64,000 bases of DNA, taken from the NCBI GenBank assembly GCA_019359615.1, contig JAHHHA010000018.1:1-64000 (forward strand). Direction: 5' to 3'. A model generated the notes under the pieces. That model made no database searches. It was given only the letters and a program-made list of their open reading frames with translations, and was not told the DNA's origin. Below are positions 9,386 to 36,466 of the stretch, one piece after another. A program made the translations under genes and the position numbers. The stretch is from Cyanosarcina radialis HA8281-LM2 (GTDB taxonomy: Bacteria > Cyanobacteriota > Cyanobacteriia > Cyanobacteriales > CCAP-1448). Numbering within the stretch: position 1 is the stretch's first letter; every line of letters starts with the position of its first letter.

Positions 9386-12157
9386 ATGGCTCAATCTCCG
9401 ATTGTAATTATCGGTGGCGGTCCGGCTGGATTGACTGCGGGTTACGAACTGGTCAAACAAGGTATCGAACCGATTATTTTTGAACGAGGCGATCGCGTCG
9501 GTGGAATTTCCCGCACGGAAACTTATAAAGATTATCGGTTTGATATTGGCGGTCATCGTTTTTTTACGAAAGTGAACGCAGTTGAAGAATTTTGGCAAGA
9601 AATTCTCGGCAATGAATTTATTCAAGTTCCACGACTTTCCCGCATTTACTATCAAGGCAAATTCTACAATTATCCCCTTTCTTTAGTTAACGCTTTATCA
9701 AACTTAGGTTTGATAAAAAGCTTTTTGATTCTGGTTAGTTATCTCCAAGCTAAGTTGAGAGACAAACTGAATTTAACTCCCACTCCAGAAACTTTTGAAG
9801 AATGGGTAATCGATTGTTTTGGAGAACGCCTGTATCGCACGTTTTTCAAAACTTATACCGAAAAAGTTTGGGGAATTCCCTGTAGTAAGATCCAAGCCGA
9901 TTGGGCAGCCCAGCGCATTCAAGGGATGTCGTTGAAGCGGGCAGTTCTCAATGCGATCTTTGGCGGTCAAAAGGCTAAAAGTTTGATCGAGGAATTTAAA
10001 TACCCAGCATTGGGTCCGGGCATGATGTGGGAACGCTGCCAGGAACTAATTGAAGATAAAGGTGGAACGGTGCGCTTGCAAACCGCCGTTAAAAGTATCA
10101 AACGAGATGGAAACCGAATTAAGAGTGTCGTTGTCGAACGAGATGGAGAGCTAGAAGAGATCGCTGCCGAACATTTCATCTCCAGTATGCCTGTTACTGC
10201 CCTGCTCTATCGACTCGATCCCTTACCGCCAACCTCGGTTTTAGAAGCAGCCCGGAAGTTGAAGTATCGAGATTTCCTAATTGTGGCGCTAATTGTTAAC
10301 CAAGAACAGTTATTTCCAGATAACTGGATTTATATTCACAGTCCAGAGTTTAAAGTAGGGCGGATTCAAAACTTTAAAAATTGGAGTTCAGCAATGGTTC
10401 CCGATCCGACCAAGACTTGTCTGGGAATGGAGTATTTCTGTAGCGAAGGCGACGATATTTGGGAACTGAGCGATCGCGATTTAATCGAACTGGCAACCCA
10501 AGAAGCGATCGCCCTGCAATTGGGTATCAAACCAGGAGATGTCGAGGATGGAGTGGTGATTCGCCAACACAAGGCTTATCCAGTTTATGACGGCGAATAT
10601 CGACAGCATTTGCAAGTCATTCAAGACTATTTAGCCACCTTGGAAAACCTCCAAACCGTCGGTCGTAACGGGATGCACCGCTACAACAATCAAGATCATT
10701 CGATGCTGACGGCAATGCTGGCAGTTAAGAATATTTTGGGCGAAAAACACAACCTGTGGAACGTCAATACCGAACGTTCTTATCATGAAGAATTCACTAA
10801 AGAGCAGTGGACGGACTTGAAAAAGCCCAAATCGCCGCGAGAAGATGCGATCGCTCCACCTGCTACTGAGAACATTCCAGAAGTCAGAGCGAATTCGTCC
10901 CTCACCCCCTTCGGCAAGCTCACGGCAACGCCCAACCCCTCTCAGATCCCCCCTGCCCCCCTTAAAAAGGGGGGTGGGAGAGGAGAGCCGGAGGCGGGTG
11001 AGGGCAACCAGGTTTGGCTGAGCGGATTCGATCTCGAACCTCAAGTAACGCTAGTTGTGACCCCGCGCGAACGGTTTAGCTATACCAAAGAGTCGCTAGA
11101 GAGCATTTACGAACACACAACTCTTCCGTTTAAGTTGGTGTATGTCGATGGCAATTCTCCAGCCGAGGTGCAGAAATATCTCGCTGAACAGGCAAAAGCC
11201 AAAGGATTTGAACTGATTCGGACAGATTACTACCTGTTTCCCAATCAGGCGCGTAACTTGGGACTGGCTAGAGTCGATACGCCCTACGTCGTCTTCATCG
11301 ACAACGATGTCATCGTCTCTCCGCAATGGCTAGAGGCACTAGTTCGATGCGCTGACGAGACGGGAGCAACGGTGGTCGGCCCCTTGATGTGTCAGTTTTT
11401 ACCGTTGCACGAAGAGATTCATTTTGCTGGCGGAGAATCGCACCTGGTGCGAGATGCCAAAGATAGACTGCGGCTGCGAGAAAAGATGTACAAACAAGGA
11501 CAAGCTGTAGCCGATGTCAGACCTCAACTTCAGCGATCGTCTACTGAATTGGCTGAATTTCACTGCGTCTTAGTCAGAACCGAGATTTTTCAAGCGATCG
11601 GGCCGTTTGATGAAACGATGCTCAACACCAAAGAGCATTTGGATTTTTGCATGACTGTCGATCGAGCAGGCGGGACGGTCTACTTCGAGCCAGATAGTAT
11701 AGTTACTTACGTGCCGACTGCTCCCCTGAAGTTCACAGACCTGCATTTTTATATGCTGCGCTGGAGCGATGCTTGGGAACTAGCTACTTTAAATCGGCTG
11801 CGGGAAAAATGGCATCTGGCGGAAGATGGCTACTTCAAACATAAGTACAAAGCTTTGGGCTGGCGACGGCGAGACACGATTTTAATGCCGATAATTCGGC
11901 GACTGACCTTGGGCATCCGCCATAACTTCCTCGACAAGCTGTTAATGTATGGCTGCTTGGCCCCCTTGGAAAAACGCCTCAACCGCTACCTGACAGAGCG
12001 GCACGCCAAAAAGTTCGGAGTTGGTAATTTTGAGGGAGTCGGGCAGACGGAGAACGCCAAAGAAGTTCAAAGCCAGGAAACAGCTAGCAGCGATCGAGTT
12101 TTTTCTTTGCCCTCTAACCTTTTGAAATTATTAGATGAAGATTCTGCTGTTGAATGA
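9386..12157 (+). CDS. UDP-galactopyranose-mutase-like flavoprotein fused to GT2 glycosyltransferase
   Basis: 923 residues from the ATG at 9386 (AAGAGG about 6 nt upstream). The N-terminal half (1 to about 490) is an FAD oxidoreductase with VIIGGGPAGLTAGYEL and FDIGGHRFFTK, as in UGM/protoporphyrinogen-oxidase-like proteins of polysaccharide loci. The C-terminal half (about 545-800) is GT2: TLVVTPRERFSYTKESLES, FPNQARNLGLA, FIDNDV. The linker (504-540) is encoded by a palindromic G/C-rich repeat. Fusion suggests that sugar modification and transfer are linked. The gene overlaps the next GT by 23 nt. Confidence 0.88.
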   Translation: MAQSPIVIIGGGPAGLTAGYELVKQGIEPIIFERGDRVGGISRTETYKDYRFDIGGHRFFTKVNAVEEFWQEILGNEFIQVPRLSRIYYQGKFYNYPLSLVNALSNLGLIKSFLILVSYLQAKLRDKLNLTPTPETFEEWVIDCFGERLYRTFFKTYTEKVWGIPCSKIQADWAAQRIQGMSLKRAVLNAIFGGQKAKSLIEEFKYPALGPGMMWERCQELIEDKGGTVRLQTAVKSIKRDGNRIKSVVVERDGELEEIAAEHFISSMPVTALLYRLDPLPPTSVLEAARKLKYRDFLIVALIVNQEQLFPDNWIYIHSPEFKVGRIQNFKNWSSAMVPDPTKTCLGMEYFCSEGDDIWELSDRDLIELATQEAIALQLGIKPGDVEDGVVIRQHKAYPVYDGEYRQHLQVIQDYLATLENLQTVGRNGMHRYNNQDHSMLTAMLAVKNILGEKHNLWNVNTERSYHEEFTKEQWTDLKKPKSPREDAIAPPATENIPEVRANSSLTPFGKLTATPNPSQIPPAPLKKGGGRGEPEAGEGNQVWLSGFDLEPQVTLVVTPRERFSYTKESLESIYEHTTLPFKLVYVDGNSPAEVQKYLAEQAKAKGFELIRTDYYLFPNQARNLGLARVDTPYVVFIDNDVIVSPQWLEALVRCADETGATVVGPLMCQFLPLHEEIHFAGGESHLVRDAKDRLRLREKMYKQGQAVADVRPQLQRSSTELAEFHCVLVRTEIFQAIGPFDETMLNTKEHLDFCMTVDRAGGTVYFEPDSIVTYVPTAPLKFTDLHFYMLRWSDAWELATLNRLREKWHLAEDGYFKHKYKALGWRRRDTILMPIIRRLTLGIRHNFLDKLLMYGCLAPLEKRLNRYLTERHAKKFGVGNFEGVGQTENAKEVQSQETASSDRVFSLPSNLLKLLDEDSAVE
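10899..11005. repeat. Family B palindromic repeat inside a coding sequence
   Basis: CTCACCCC...CCCCCCTTAAAAAGGGGGG...GGGTGAGGGC. The ends are inverted and the centre is a strong hairpin. It is translated in frame as a Pro/Gly-rich linker between the two enzyme domains. Confidence 0.85.
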
Positions 12158-25228: not shown

Positions 25229-26908
25229 GTGGTATTTTCTCCGTCAACGTATGTAAACTTTGTATCTGAGGCGACCGCTTCGCAGGAACGCCTATTTCTG
25301 CAATATATAAGTCCGCGCAACGATTTCGACGTAATCATCATTGGATCGGGTATCGGCGGGGGCGTGCTGGCTGACGATCTAGCCGAGCGGATAGGAAAAA
25401 ACCAGCGAATACTCCTGCTAGAAGCTGGATCGTTCGTCTACCCTACTCATGTCTACAATGTATGTCGCTTTCCCAACGCCAGCATCGCCAAGCATTTTGG
25501 CTGCGATACCTTCTGGCAATCTGGCAATCCTGGAACGCAAAACTATATTGGCGAGAAGCCACAACTAAATTTCGGCGGTCGATCGATTTTCTGGTCTGGT
25601 CTAATTCCTGCAATTCAGGGATGGGAACTGGATTTTTTCCCTGACACGGTTAAGCAAGACTTAGAAGCTGGTCTGCTGAATCTGGCTGGAGAGGCGATGA
25701 ATGAATCGAGAAGCATGGGATCGGTCGCCCAGGCAATCGTTGCCAAGCTTCGGCAATCGCCGCTGGCCAGCGATTTCTCAATTCAAGAGACACCTCGCGC
25801 TTTACACCAACCTTACTTAGAGTCGGACAGCAAACCAAAAGATCGATTTTTTACTGAGCCAACTGGTGTTTTCAATACGGCTGAGTTACTAATTAACCAG
25901 TTAGGACTCACTCCTGGAATCAGCCAGGGAGACGGGCCTGGTCTGCACATACTTCTGAATCACTATGTCGAAGATGTGAAAAAACAGGGGGCATCTTTTA
26001 CTATTGTGGGTCGCAATACGTTAACTGGGGCGGCGCGAGAGTTTCAAGCGGGGACCGTCATTCTGGCTGCTGGCTCGATCGAAAGCCCCAAACTCATTCA
26101 ACGTTCGAGCGTGTACGGTCTATTACCTGCGGCTACACAACAATTAGTCGGGCTGGGGCTTACAGATCATCCGACATCCAACGAAATAACCACCTACGCC
26201 ACAGGCATCGGCAATGTAGCGATCGGGAGCGACGATCATGCCAAGATTATTTTTTATTCTCGTGGACTCAGAGACTCGAACGATGAGATTAGATATCCAT
26301 TCAACGTGGAAATGAATATCAATCATGAATACTGGCATTTGCGAGAGAACGATCCTACTGAAAGCCAATCGAGCAACCCTACAAACGGGGCAGCCCGAAT
26401 CGATATTAAGTTCAGTTTTGCAAACTGCCTAGATGACGAGAATCAGGTGAAACCATCCCCACCATCAAGCTTCGTTCCTGAAATTGCCTTTAGAAATTTG
26501 AGTTGGGCAGACTACCTAGCCCAATCTCGTTTTCCTGCCTTGGCAGGTTGGCAGAAGAGCGCTAGTGAAATATTTGCGATTCTCAACAGCGTGACTTACG
26601 AGATCTTCAAACAATTCGACAACAACGGGAACCCTGCACGACCTGTCGATGAAGTATGGTACGGGCAAGGCGGCAAGGGTTTTGGGTGGGGAACCGTTCA
26701 TCATTCGGCTGGTTCCTTACGAATGCCGTACAGGACTCGACTCGATGCCCCATTTTCAACCAGTTCCGTTGTAGACGAAAACCTGAGTGTTTCTGGAGTG
26801 CCAGGTTTATATATTTGTGATATGTCTGTTATGCCCTTTAGCTCCGCAGCCAATCCGGTACGCACGCTGGTCGCTCTTGCTCTCAGGTTATCTCGTCACC
26901 TCAGTTGA
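25229..26908 (+). CDS. GMC-type FAD oxidoreductase
   Basis: 559 residues from the GTG at 25229. N-terminal FAD-binding motif VIIIGSGIGGGVLADDLAE, a middle variable region, and the GMC C-terminal signature HHSAGSLRMPY ... SVSGVPGLYICDMSVMPFSS then NPVRTLVALALRL. The His in the HHSAGS block and Asn of SAANP are at the usual active-site positions. GMC enzymes oxidise alcohols (glucose, choline, cholesterol and others). The substrate is unknown; proximity to the terpenoid-type operon makes a sterol or terpene alcohol possible (inference). Confidence 0.85.
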   Translation: MVFSPSTYVNFVSEATASQERLFLQYISPRNDFDVIIIGSGIGGGVLADDLAERIGKNQRILLLEAGSFVYPTHVYNVCRFPNASIAKHFGCDTFWQSGNPGTQNYIGEKPQLNFGGRSIFWSGLIPAIQGWELDFFPDTVKQDLEAGLLNLAGEAMNESRSMGSVAQAIVAKLRQSPLASDFSIQETPRALHQPYLESDSKPKDRFFTEPTGVFNTAELLINQLGLTPGISQGDGPGLHILLNHYVEDVKKQGASFTIVGRNTLTGAAREFQAGTVILAAGSIESPKLIQRSSVYGLLPAATQQLVGLGLTDHPTSNEITTYATGIGNVAIGSDDHAKIIFYSRGLRDSNDEIRYPFNVEMNINHEYWHLRENDPTESQSSNPTNGAARIDIKFSFANCLDDENQVKPSPPSSFVPEIAFRNLSWADYLAQSRFPALAGWQKSASEIFAILNSVTYEIFKQFDNNGNPARPVDEVWYGQGGKGFGWGTVHHSAGSLRMPYRTRLDAPFSTSSVVDENLSVSGVPGLYICDMSVMPFSSAANPVRTLVALALRLSRHLS

Positions 26909-31975: not shown

Positions 31976-34243
31976 ATGGAAAACCAGTTACCAAAGAATT
32001 CATGCTTAGGGATTAAGTCTTTTCCAGACGATTGGCCTGGCGATGGAGCGATCGATCTCAAAATCCACGATCTCCCCCATCGTTCTTCCACGATCGAATG
32101 GTGGTATGTCAACAGCCATTTGGTGACTGTTGACGGCAGAGAATTTTCTGTATTCGCAGCCTTTTTTCGCTCTTTGGAAGAAGCTGGAGAGCCAAAATTA
32201 GAACCAGTTTACTGCCATTCGTTGACGTGGGCGCTAATCGATGCTTCCGAGCAGAAATACTATCGGGAATCTCTGCTCGATCGTCGAGGGCCTGGGATTG
32301 CTCTAAACAAGATGCAAAAGGATTTTAACACTACCGATCCATTTCTCAAAAAAGCTCTGAGAGAAGTTTTTGAACAGGGAAAGGTAACTCTTCCAGATTT
32401 ACTGCTGAAAAAGAATGCTGAGGTGAGCGCGGAGGAATTAAAGCTGGACTATGACGGCAATCGATTTGTGAAGCTAACTGAAGGATGCTACCAGCTAAAA
32501 CTGGCAGACAGAGATGGAATAGTCGGTTGCGAACTCTTATTTACTTTAAAAAAACCTCCCGCTCGCCACGGCAATAACGGCGTGGTGCGAGGCACTACGG
32601 GAGAAGAAATGTTTTATTACTTTGTCCCTTCGTGTCGAGTAGAAGGAACCCTAACAGTGGCAGGAAAAACTCTTGAAGTTAAAACAGCTAAGGGTTGGTA
32701 CGATCGCGAATTTGGTAGACCGGAAGAGCGGCAAAATAGCGATCGTACTAAATCGAATGTTGCTTGGAATTGGATTGCCGTCCAACTCGATAATGGCTGC
32801 GAAATTAATGCCTACGATCTGATCGATATCGATAAAGACACAAGTTGCGGACATTATGCTATTGTCATCGATCCAAAAGGAGATTGGCAATGCCATAGGG
32901 AGTTTACTTTCAAGCCCCTAGAAAACTGGACCAGTAGCCGTACTTTTGAGAACTACCCGATTCGATGGCTGTTACAAATTCCCGCTCTCGATCTTAGCCT
33001 TACCGTAGAGGCCGCATTTCCCGCGCAGGAGTTTGTCACCCTTATTTCTCACCCAGGTTTTTGGGAAGGGCGGGTAACGATCGCAGGTGAGATGAAGGGA
33101 AAAACAGTTCGAGGAATTGGCTTTATCGAACGCAGTGGCTTTAGTAAGTTGGCAAGATTAGAAGACTTTCTCAAAGCTGTCGGACAGCAAACCAGAACAT
33201 CGATCCAAAATCTTTTACCGCTTGCACCCACTACCGCTCAATTGAAAAAACTCATAGGTAGCGAATCTCAACCCCACCGCCTGCAAGGACTCGACTCCCA
33301 GCAGTATTCTCAAGCCTTACTCGAACCGATTCGTACCATCGTCGATCGAGGTGGCAAAGCTTGGCGCTCCTACGCTCCCTTAGCCTGTATCGATCTTGTA
33401 GGGGGTGATTCTTCCTTGTTCTTAGATTGGCTGGGAGTTCCCGAATTATTGCACGTCGGTTCTTTAATTGTTGACGACGTGCAGGATCGCTCTCTAGTGA
33501 GGCGAGGCGGTCCTACTTGCCATCATCTCTATGGCGAACCTTTGGCGATTAATGCTGGAAATGCCTGTTATTTTCTAGGAGAGATCTTACTAAGAAATAG
33601 TAATATTTCTGCCGCAGATAAGCTGCGAATTTACCAGCTATATTTTGATACTTTGCGAGCCGCTCATGCCGGACAAGCTTTAGATCTTAGCGGTTTTAGT
33701 TATCTGATGCCTGAAGTAGTCGATTGCGGTACTGGAGAACTGTTAGAAGCACGAATTTTGTCCATGTACTGCCTTAAATCTGGAGTTCCTGCCAGCGCCT
33801 CGGCCAAAATGGGGGCGATTCTCGGTGGGGGAAGTCAAGAGCAAATCGATCGACTTGGTGGCTTTTTTGAAGCTTTGGGTATTGCTTTTCAGATTGTTGA
33901 TGATGTTTTGAATTTACGCGGCTTTGAAAACAATTTAAAGTCCAAGGGAGAAGATATTACGGCAGGTAAAATCACCCTTCCTGTGGCTAAGGCGATGTCA
34001 GCTTTACCTTTAAAAAAACGGCAGCAGCTTTGGAAAAGTCTTGGTGCTAATCTTAGCGATCCGAAAGATATATCTGCTGTCATCGACTCTCTCGAAGCCT
34101 GCGGAGCAATCACAGCCTGCGTGCAACAAGCTAACGGGTTGGTCGAGTCAGCTTGGCAAGAACTCGATCGACTAGTTCCTGATTCTGATGTCAAGATGCG
34201 ATTGCGATCGTTTAGTTGGTACGTTCTCCAGAGGCATTATTAA
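31976..34243 (+). CDS. CrtC-like lipocalin domain fused to polyprenyl diphosphate synthase
   Basis: 755 residues. The N-terminal half (about 15-390) is of the CrtC/AttH lipocalin-like type: EWWYVNSHL at 41, FFRSLEE, KGWYDREFGRPEE, GFWEGRVTIAGEM, GIGFIERSGF. In other proteins this fold hydrates, cyclises or binds polyprenes. The C-terminal half (about 425-755) is a trans-prenyltransferase: LLHVGSLIVDDVQDRSLVRR with DDVQD at 500-504, and a second motif FQIVDDVLN at 639-646 that ends in Asn, then KGEDITAGKITLPV. Motif spacing is most like type III (eukaryotic/fungal) GGPP synthases. It probably makes and modifies a C15-C20 or longer chain in one polypeptide. Confidence 0.82.
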   Translation: MENQLPKNSCLGIKSFPDDWPGDGAIDLKIHDLPHRSSTIEWWYVNSHLVTVDGREFSVFAAFFRSLEEAGEPKLEPVYCHSLTWALIDASEQKYYRESLLDRRGPGIALNKMQKDFNTTDPFLKKALREVFEQGKVTLPDLLLKKNAEVSAEELKLDYDGNRFVKLTEGCYQLKLADRDGIVGCELLFTLKKPPARHGNNGVVRGTTGEEMFYYFVPSCRVEGTLTVAGKTLEVKTAKGWYDREFGRPEERQNSDRTKSNVAWNWIAVQLDNGCEINAYDLIDIDKDTSCGHYAIVIDPKGDWQCHREFTFKPLENWTSSRTFENYPIRWLLQIPALDLSLTVEAAFPAQEFVTLISHPGFWEGRVTIAGEMKGKTVRGIGFIERSGFSKLARLEDFLKAVGQQTRTSIQNLLPLAPTTAQLKKLIGSESQPHRLQGLDSQQYSQALLEPIRTIVDRGGKAWRSYAPLACIDLVGGDSSLFLDWLGVPELLHVGSLIVDDVQDRSLVRRGGPTCHHLYGEPLAINAGNACYFLGEILLRNSNISAADKLRIYQLYFDTLRAAHAGQALDLSGFSYLMPEVVDCGTGELLEARILSMYCLKSGVPASASAKMGAILGGGSQEQIDRLGGFFEALGIAFQIVDDVLNLRGFENNLKSKGEDITAGKITLPVAKAMSALPLKKRQQLWKSLGANLSDPKDISAVIDSLEACGAITACVQQANGLVESAWQELDRLVPDSDVKMRLRSFSWYVLQRHY

Positions 34244-34244
34244 T

Positions 34245-35144
34245 ATGACTAATATGCAATCTGTGGATTTACCAAATGGATTGACGATTTCGGCTTTAAA
34301 TAAAACGGAAGCTGGGATTCTTTACCATGAAATTTTTATTCAAAAGTCATACCTAAAGTATGGTATTCAAGTCTGCGATGGCGACTGTATCTTCGATGTT
34401 GGTGCCAATATTGGGATGTATACAATTTTTCTCGGTCAATTATTCAGCCATCTAAAAATCTTCGCCTTTGAACCAATTCCCGATATTTTTTCGGCTCTAA
34501 AAGACAATGCCAGTAATTATTCCCAGACCTCAGAGATCGAACTTTTCAATTTAGGATTATCAGAGCAGAATCGGGTAGCTCGATTTGAGTTTAATCCAAA
34601 ACTCAGCTTGGCAGCAAGTATGTACGATCGGGAGCTAGCAGAGTCTGTCAGTCAGGATGCAACCATAGATGACTGGGTGAAAGCGATCGCGGTCGATTTA
34701 GCAAAAGTCGCTCTGATTTCTCCTGGATTAGCACGATTTTTCCTAAAAATTCTGTCAATACCGTTGCTCGGATCTCTCTGTCTGACAATTCTCAATCGAT
34801 TGGTTTTAGGGAAGATAGATAAAGCCCGATCGATTCAGATCGATTGTCAACTGAAAACGGTTTCAGAAATTATTAGAGAGAACGATATTGCCGCGATCGA
34901 TCTGATGAAAATCGATACTGAAGGCAGCGAGTTAGACGTGCTGATGGGAATCGAAGCGGAGGATTGGAAGAAGATTAAACAGTTTGTAGTCGAAGTGCAT
35001 AATATCGACGATCGCTTGTCAAAGATCGTATCCCTGTTCGAGAGCCACAGATACAGCACGATTGTCGATCGAGAAGACTGGGAAGTCCACAAACTGATGA
35101 ATATTTTTACCATTTATGCAGTTGCTAGAGAGCAAGTTTTATGA
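34245..35144 (+). CDS. FkbM family methyltransferase
   Basis: 299 residues from the ATG at 34245, 1 nt after the fusion gene's stop. CIFDVGANIGMYTIFLGQLF is motif I; KIFAFEPIPDIFSALKDN follows; IDLMKIDTEGSELDVLMG is the FkbM C-terminal signature; QFVVEVHN closes it. FkbM enzymes methylate hydroxyls on sugars, polyketides or lipids. It ends in an ATGA overlap with the glycosyltransferase, so the three genes form one operon. Confidence 0.9.
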   Translation: MTNMQSVDLPNGLTISALNKTEAGILYHEIFIQKSYLKYGIQVCDGDCIFDVGANIGMYTIFLGQLFSHLKIFAFEPIPDIFSALKDNASNYSQTSEIELFNLGLSEQNRVARFEFNPKLSLAASMYDRELAESVSQDATIDDWVKAIAVDLAKVALISPGLARFFLKILSIPLLGSLCLTILNRLVLGKIDKARSIQIDCQLKTVSEIIRENDIAAIDLMKIDTEGSELDVLMGIEAEDWKKIKQFVVEVHNIDDRLSKIVSLFESHRYSTIVDREDWEVHKLMNIFTIYAVAREQVL

Positions 35145-36466
35145 CCTCTAAATATTCAGGTAACTATGCCTTATTTGTCTCCATTCCCTTTGTGGGACAC
35201 ATCAACCCTCTACTGCGGCAAGCAGAGGAACTCGTCCGACGTGGATGGCGGGTGGGCATTGCCTCTACACGAGAAATCCAAAACTATGTAGAAGCAGATC
35301 CCTGCGTTCGACAGGGGGCGCGTTTTGTCGATTTGGGATCGGCAGCCCGGTTTCAGGATAAGTTGTTGGAGATCGAGCAAGAGATCTCCAAAGGGAAAAA
35401 CTTCCGGCAGGGTAGCTTCCAGATCGTCGAGTCTTTATGGTTGATTTGGCCGCTCTTCTTTGATGAATTGTTGAAAGTTGTCCGCCAAGAACGCCCCGAT
35501 ATTCTGATTGTCGATTTTGTCACCAGAGGTGCGATCGATCTGGCTGAAGCTGAAGGGATCGCAGTTATTATCAACAATCCCGATCTACTTACTACTATTT
35601 CTATTGAATATCTGCCCCCCGCGTTTGATGTGCCTCTGCCCTATATGGGGCATTCTGTTCGCGCTCTGCCCTGGCATCGCCAATGGTCTTATCCGGTGCT
35701 GCGATGGCTCAGCGGCCGGATCGTCGATCTAACCATCGGACGCAGGCTCAACCAGCTTCGGGCAAGTCGGGGATTGGGGAAACTGAGTATTAATTGCGCC
35801 TGGGCCAAACATACTGTCATGGTTAACAGTGCTTTTGGTCTGGAGTATCCCCGGCCGCTGCCAGGGAATGTAATCATGGTTGGTCCCATGCTGTCTTCAG
35901 TCGTCGAGCCGTTATCCCCTGAAATCGAGGATTGGTTGGGTAACGGCCCGCCAGTAGTCTATGTTAACCTGGGCACGATCGCGCTGCCGATGCTAGATTT
36001 AGTCGATCGGATGTACGAGGCATTTGCTGGCGCACCGTTTCGAGTCTGGTGGATTCTGCGACCTCAAATGCAGCAGCTACTACCTGCACCGCTGGCTGCA
36101 AACATTCGCATTGATGCCTGGGGACCACCTTTGCTGGCGATCCTCAAACATCCACAGGTTCGGGTTTTTGTTTCTCATTGCGGTATCAACAGCACTCAGG
36201 AATCGCTGGCAGCCGGAACGCCAATTGTGGGCATCCCGATGCTGGCAGACCAGTTTGATATGGCAATGCGGGTCGAGGATGCTAGGGTAGGTTTAATCCT
36301 CAACAAGCTGACATTCTCTGCCTCCGAACTGCGGGCAGCGATCGAGCGGGTGCTGTCAGATTCGTCTTTCCTCCAGCCAATTCCAGCTATTCAAGAGTCA
36401 TTTCGTCAAGCTGGGGGCGTGGCTCGCGCTGCCGATACGATCGAGTTGGATTTATTAGCCTACTGA
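35141..36466 (+). CDS. GT1 (UGT/MGT-type) glycosyltransferase
   Basis: 441 residues. The N-terminus (SIPFVGHINPLLRQAEELVR) binds the acceptor; the C-terminal donor motif is FVSHCGINSTQESLAAGTPI then PMLADQFD, the macrolide/terpenoid UGT signature. UGTs of this kind glycosylate small lipophilic acceptors, fitting a carotenoid, sterol or other terpenoid made upstream. The start overlaps FkbM by 4 nt. Confidence 0.92.
   Translation: MTSKYSGNYALFVSIPFVGHINPLLRQAEELVRRGWRVGIASTREIQNYVEADPCVRQGARFVDLGSAARFQDKLLEIEQEISKGKNFRQGSFQIVESLWLIWPLFFDELLKVVRQERPDILIVDFVTRGAIDLAEAEGIAVIINNPDLLTTISIEYLPPAFDVPLPYMGHSVRALPWHRQWSYPVLRWLSGRIVDLTIGRRLNQLRASRGLGKLSINCAWAKHTVMVNSAFGLEYPRPLPGNVIMVGPMLSSVVEPLSPEIEDWLGNGPPVVYVNLGTIALPMLDLVDRMYEAFAGAPFRVWWILRPQMQQLLPAPLAANIRIDAWGPPLLAILKHPQVRVFVSHCGINSTQESLAAGTPIVGIPMLADQFDMAMRVEDARVGLILNKLTFSASELRAAIERVLSDSSFLQPIPAIQESFRQAGGVARAADTIELDLLAY

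Follow-up and report, generated by a model that had tools for sequence, protein, structure and literature searches.

A single gene in the window (the whole stretch of 64,000 nucleotides analyzed here) encodes a protein in which a CrtC/AttH-type lipocalin-like unit is joined to a trans-isoprenyl diphosphate synthase. The bifunctional architecture is real and conserved but apparently uncharacterized so far, and a search of the open, searchable literature turned up no characterized enzyme combining CrtC with a prenyl synthase. The protein is moderately likely to be a make-and-modify enzyme of terpenoid formation, in which the lipocalin half would protonate the prenyl chain produced by the synthase half and thereby found a glycosylated terpenoid.

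Domain architecture and the synthase half

The gene begins with ATG and runs without interruption to the stop codon at 34241-34243. Scans for promoters and terminators gave no excess over shuffled sequences. The gene and its domains are as follows:

31976..34243, + strand: coding sequence of the fusion protein, 755 amino acids (from the ORF list, its translation, and full-length conservation in relatives)
32093..32716, + strand: CrtC N-terminal lipocalin domain, residues 40 to 247 (Pfam PF07143, E = 2.1e-18)
32750..33139, + strand: Lipocalin_9, residues 259 to 388, second part of a two-domain lipocalin with CrtC (PF17186, E = 3.1e-23)
33161..34240, + strand: trans-isoprenyl diphosphate synthase half as folded, from about residue 395/396 to 755 (Pfam and AF2 model)
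33311-34087, + strand: polyprenyl_synt match, residues 446 to 704 (PF00348, E = 3.6e-46)

All three Pfam matches lie well above the curated cut-offs, which bears out the first-pass annotation of a CrtC/AttH lipocalin-like domain fused to a polyprenyl synthase. Profile searches on each half assign CrtC and Lipocalin_9 to the N-terminal half, so that residues 15 to 390 do match the lipocalin families, and polyprenyl_synt to the C-terminal half. All 16 aligned relatives contain polyprenyl_synt, and 15 of the 16 contain CrtC and Lipocalin_9. This recurrence of the domain set shows that the fusion is real, and its conservation across many genomes rules out a one-off chimera or an artifact of assembly or annotation. 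Both halves are under nearly equal purifying selection, with dN/dS values against the nearest relative (a member of the same family, locus L060) of 0.23 for the lipocalin half and 0.20 for the synthase half.

The protein was modeled with AF2 from an alignment that included 11 homologues; the model has a mean pLDDT of 82 and a pTM of 0.80. Its first 390 residues form a mainly beta, two-domain unit that superimposes on AttH (2ich) with a Z score of 35.6 (307 residues, RMSD of 2.6) and on kievitone hydratase (7a0q) with a Z score of 32.3 (298 residues, RMSD of 3.0, 18% identity over the aligned residues). Residues 395 to 755 are all helical and match the Pyrococcus GGPP synthase 1wy0 (Z score of 36.3, RMSD of 2.5, 326 residues). 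Only a very short linker (within about 10 residues) separates the final lipocalin strand, which extends to residue 387, from the first synthase helix, which starts at residue 395; the helix that follows the linker is conserved.

The sequence of the C-terminal half strongly indicates a trans-isoprenyl diphosphate synthase that would condense IPP with an allylic diphosphate. Its two Asp-rich motifs are as follows:

33473..33487, + strand: first Asp-rich motif, DDVQD (residues 500 to 504), preceded by invariant Gly495 and Ser496 at positions -5 and -4
33899..33913, + strand: second Asp-rich motif, DDVLN (residues 642 to 646), ending in Asn, with D642, D643, and N646 invariant in the alignment of fusions

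Both motifs, and the KGEDITAGK motif that had been listed with them, are present in the protein, and the metal-binding Asp pairs are kept, with D500, D501, D504, D642, and D643 invariant among the fusions. The first motif, in the context GSLIVDDVQD, lacks the type II insertion and carries no aromatic residue at -5. Type III enzymes share both traits, and so do long-chain bacterial synthases. By the general rules of chain-length control, the Gly and Ser at -5 and -4 suggest products of C20 or longer. The proposed resemblance to eukaryotic and fungal type III enzymes holds for the local motifs but not for overall similarity: the profile of the fusion synthases scores the archaeal Pyrococcus GGPPS (119.6 bits), a plant GGPPS (114.1 bits), and a bacterial octaprenyl synthase (108.1 bits) above the yeast (105.4 bits) and human (98.3 bits) GGPPS. 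The best NCBIfam models are likewise prokaryotic (IdsA and the encapsulin-cargo type). The C-terminal half shares fold, length, and both Asp-rich motifs with the IdsA/GGPPS enzymes of the polyprenyl_synt family, but it differs from them in that the fusion synthases form a clade of their own, Asn closes the second motif, every NCBIfam cut-off is missed, and another domain is fused to the N terminus.

Candidate active-site residues of the lipocalin half

The lipocalin half was compared with the authentic CrtC of Roseobacter litoralis, taken from its photosynthesis cluster (locus L036) and aligned by MAFFT and hhalign. The positions concerned are as follows:

32606..32608, + strand: Glu211 (Glu or Asp among the aligned fusions), aligned with RgCrtC His239
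32702..32704, + strand: Asp243, proposed general acid, corresponding to RgCrtC Asp268 (MAFFT and hhalign against R. litoralis CrtC)
32765..32773, + strand: Trp264-Asn265-Trp266, corresponding to the cation-pi residues RgCrtC Trp283/Trp285 (same alignment), invariant among the fusions

The hhalign score against this single R. litoralis sequence is weak. The spacing in R. litoralis CrtC (29 from His to Asp, and +15 and +17 from Asp to the Trp pair) is identical to the published RgCrtC numbering, which supports the assignment of D243, W264, and W266. In CrtC, Asp268 and the Trp pair are required (PMC4717167, PMC12402844), and Trp283/Trp285 have a cation-pi role (PMC12402844). The invariant polar and aromatic residues in the alignment of fusions are D243, E210, W264/N265/W266, and R197/H198.

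The likeness to CrtC (studied in Rubrivivax gelatinosus and Thiocapsa roseopersicina) comprises the CrtC lipocalin domain, the Asp, and the Trp pair. CrtC targets terminal double bonds in prenyl chains, C20 included; its substrates range over C12 to C20 terpenes, geranylgeraniol among them (PMC12402844), and its protonation step has been likened to that of squalene-hopene cyclase (PMC4717167). In the fusion, however, three essential CrtC residues are replaced (His239 by Glu or Asp, Trp241 by Phe, and Tyr266 by Trp), a prenyl synthase is attached, and there are no adjoining carotenoid genes. Since only Asp268 is retained among His239, Trp241, Tyr266, and Asp268, the protein does not count as an orthologue of CrtC, but a similar mode of action is possible.

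The other characterized relative is the kievitone hydratase of Nectria haematococca (7a0q/7a0t), which shares the fold and the WYDRxxG and WxW motifs with the fusion. It is a fungal enzyme of single activity that, according to PMC5805349, adds water to the prenyl double bond of a prenylated isoflavonoid. AttH-like lipocalins (2ich) are the top fold and sequence match of the N-terminal half, but they are stand-alone proteins with no function assigned. AttH carries the Asp and the Trp pair in a similar pattern too. Keeping these residues is therefore no proof of hydratase chemistry by itself, and the active-site argument for the lipocalin half is suggestive.

Gene neighborhoods and proposed reaction

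Two genes follow the fusion gene in a tight operon (fusion-FkbM-UGT):

34245..35144, + strand: FkbM-family methyltransferase (TIGR01444, 8.5e-25; PF05050), starting 1 nt after the stop codon of the fusion gene
35141..36466, + strand: UDP-glycosyltransferase of the macrolide-GT/UDPGT type (PF00201, 4.8e-29), its ATG overlapping the FkbM stop codon

For the FkbM gene the start at 34245 was used, the one in the ORF list (34188) being overlong. A GMC-type oxidoreductase gene lies on the same strand about 5 kb upstream of the fusion gene (25229-26908), with no sign of operon membership.

Tailoring genes recur next to the fusion in other genomes. In the same-family genome L060 the order is fusion, UGT, sulfotransferase, and P450, with the UGT directly after the fusion and 64% identical to that of the window. 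Loci L019 to L021 and L023 (Spirosoma and Telluribacter) carry the fusion, an LMF1-like gene, FkbM, a glycosyltransferase, and two P450s; the FkbM of the window is 50% identical to that of the Spirosoma cluster L019, with 50% and 41% across Spirosoma/Telluribacter. The order at L025 is P450, nucleotide-sugar epimerase, fusion, and glycosyltransferase. A plasmid of Tolypothrix sp. PCC 7601 encodes a single protein of 1509 amino acids with the arrangement sulfotransferase-glycosyltransferase-CrtC-Lipocalin_9-synthase (L031:9655-14184), flanked by DevBCA-type exporter genes. The neighboring genes vary, however, and the lineages L022, L024, L026 to L029, and L055 show no obvious tailoring genes, a point against the scheme proposed below. 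The UGT of the window was considered as an orthologue of the Tolypothrix glycosyltransferase segment and rejected at only about 20 to 23% identity. As the glycosyltransferases are not all orthologous, what recurs is the class of function and not the orthologue, and the common theme suggested by the neighborhoods is a terpenoid glycoside decorated with methyl, sulfate, or oxygen groups. No clear orthologous P450, sulfotransferase, or FkbM gene was found elsewhere in the two cyanobacterial genomes searched.

Other neighbors were also observed. The LMF1-like (lipase maturation factor) protein, of 760 to 764 amino acids, is encoded directly after the fusion at five Bacteroidota loci (L019:12248-14542, and likewise L020, L021, L023, and L056). 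On two Streptomyces plasmids, ABC permease and ATPase genes lie directly upstream of the synthase gene and divergent from it; the synthase is fused in one (L032:12288-13771), and in the other a related synthase stands alone (L034:8136-9622).

A squalene-hopene cyclase search in four fusion-cluster genomes (G001, G415, G416, and G531) found none and detected its controls. Bacterial class I terpene synthase profiles gave no match in the same four genomes, a weaker result, as that search had no detected positive control. The genome of the window contains a squalene-hopene-cyclase-like gene on another contig (C8 of G000, about 9638-10696), and it also encodes two further trans-prenyl synthases.

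The first-pass annotation had proposed a bifunctional make-and-modify enzyme. This idea gains support from the conserved candidate acid, the Trp pair that may stabilize a cation, and the tailoring genes nearby, and leads to the following scheme. The C-terminal half would condense IPP with an allylic diphosphate to an all-trans prenyl diphosphate, of C20 or longer because of the Gly/Ser before the first Asp-rich motif. The lipocalin half would then take up the chain, Asp243 protonating a terminal or internal trisubstituted double bond and Trp264/Trp266 holding the cation. Quenching by water would give a tertiary alcohol, as with CrtC and kievitone hydratase, and quenching by another double bond would give a ring, by analogy with squalene-hopene cyclase. 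The UGT would glycosylate a hydroxyl group, either the new one or that from the diphosphate end, and the FkbM enzyme would probably O-methylate the sugar or the aglycone; relatives would add P450 oxidation or sulfation and may export the product. The fusion would channel the chain into its own pathway, away from the two other trans-prenyl synthases of the genome. Of the two outcomes, hydration is the more conservative expectation: both characterized relatives are hydratases, and CrtC accepts geranylgeraniol. Cyclization is possible in view of the comparison drawn between CrtC and squalene-hopene cyclase (PMC4717167). A more far-reaching reading, tentative and rather unlikely, sees in the lipocalin half a proton-initiated (class II-like) terpene cyclase of a new structural type; one polypeptide would then carry out every step from the C5 units to a cyclic terpenol, the substrate for glycosylation.

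Lipid binding is the best-known role of the lipocalin fold. The lipocalin half might accordingly be a noncatalytic carrier or release factor that hands the prenyl chain to the glycosyltransferase, a P450, or another enzyme, a reading also favored by the substitution of three essential CrtC residues and by the presence of the Asp and Trp residues in AttH, for which no activity is known. Against it stand the invariant, active-site-like residues of the fusions, purifying selection nearly as strong as on the synthase half, and the lack of any other gene near the L060 fusion able to supply a terpene cyclase or hydratase; it is possible but on the unlikely side. Fungal lipocalin-like Diels-Alderases show that such a fold carries several chemistries (PMC9701702, PMC9055775), and pericyclic chemistry, diphosphate removal, or isomerization might thus be performed here. 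This is improbable: an activated diene is missing from a linear prenyl diphosphate, and among solved sequences the family profile matches AttH and kievitone hydratase alone at an E value of 0.01. The Diels-Alderases are absent from these matches and from the fold matches listed, though kinship with them is possible all the same.

The halves might also act on unrelated molecules, the fusion keeping them in equal amounts and the lipocalin half working late in their shared pathway on an intermediate, for example a prenylated aromatic, much as kievitone hydratase acts on a prenylated isoflavonoid. With no aromatic prenyltransferase or polyketide gene among the annotated neighbors of the fusions, we regard this as having little probability. 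Joint action of both halves on one chain remains the preferred reading. In its logic the fusion resembles the fungal chimeric prenyltransferase-terpene synthases of the PaFS type, single polypeptides in which the prenyl synthase likewise follows, on the C-terminal side, a domain that transforms terpenoids. Their cyclase is a class I terpene synthase, whereas the N-terminal half of the fusion is the unrelated CrtC/Lipocalin_9 unit. PaFS founds the diterpene glycoside fusicoccin A (PMC8190136), and such chimeras have been described as fungi-only (PMC8307374). If the preferred reading is true, these enzymes have a bacterial and archaeal counterpart in which a lipocalin replaces the class I cyclase and which would offer a channeled, cofactor-free route to hydroxylated or cyclic terpenols. 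The fusion makes it directly testable whether the CrtC fold cyclizes besides hydrating, and its family marks apparently unmined terpenoid clusters in Spirosoma, Telluribacter, Flavobacterium, Streptomyces, cyanobacteria, and Thermoplasmatota.

Distribution and descent

Full-length fusions are found at loci L019 to L029, L031, L032, L054 to L057, and L060, and are 29 to 87% identical across a same-family cyanobacterium, Tolypothrix, Bacteroidota, proteobacteria/Myxococcota, Thermoplasmatota, and Streptomyces. That such an enzyme would be unfamiliar from cyanobacteria agrees with its rarity there: it occurs in 1 of 386 sampled genomes, in one further member of the same family (87% identical), and on the Tolypothrix plasmid (37%). 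It is not a cyanobacterial peculiarity, being scattered over bacteria and archaea. The Spirosoma class gave six matches in 295 genomes (four of them full length, one truncated at the edge of its contig, and a fragment), and the fusion is present in 3 of 145 Thermoplasmatota genomes, in Myxococcota and proteobacterial MAGs, and in Streptomyces canus (30% identical). The archaeal placement looks genuine, since a TFIIB gene lies close to the fusion in the Thermoplasmata contig L026.

In the tree of the synthase half, 18 fused rows form one clade (support of 100/99), with some of its inner and surrounding forks left open and with uncertain placement for the Nitrosomonas, Tolypothrix, and S. canus rows, which have long branches. 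S. canus falls outside this clade, adjoining two stand-alone Streptomyces synthases, and a single origin for all fused rows has a support of only 79/40. No lipocalin gene was found by tblastn beside the stand-alone Streptomyces synthases at L034 and L069. The protein of the window groups with those of Bacteroidota (99/97) and not with that of Tolypothrix, an indication of horizontal transfer. A candidate natural split in Flavobacterium sp. Root935 (L030:10001-12273) was rejected: the reading frame changes between its two ORFs at the linker, which makes it a frameshifted copy (or a sequencing error) and not an independent split. A plasmid of Nitrosomonas stercoris encodes a protein of 649 amino acids (L033:7368-9317) with a related synthase half and an N-terminal half too diverged for Pfam, followed by genes for a flavin monooxygenase and a leucine-carboxyl-methyltransferase-like protein. 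The plasmid-borne members are annotated merely as "polyprenyl synthetase family protein."
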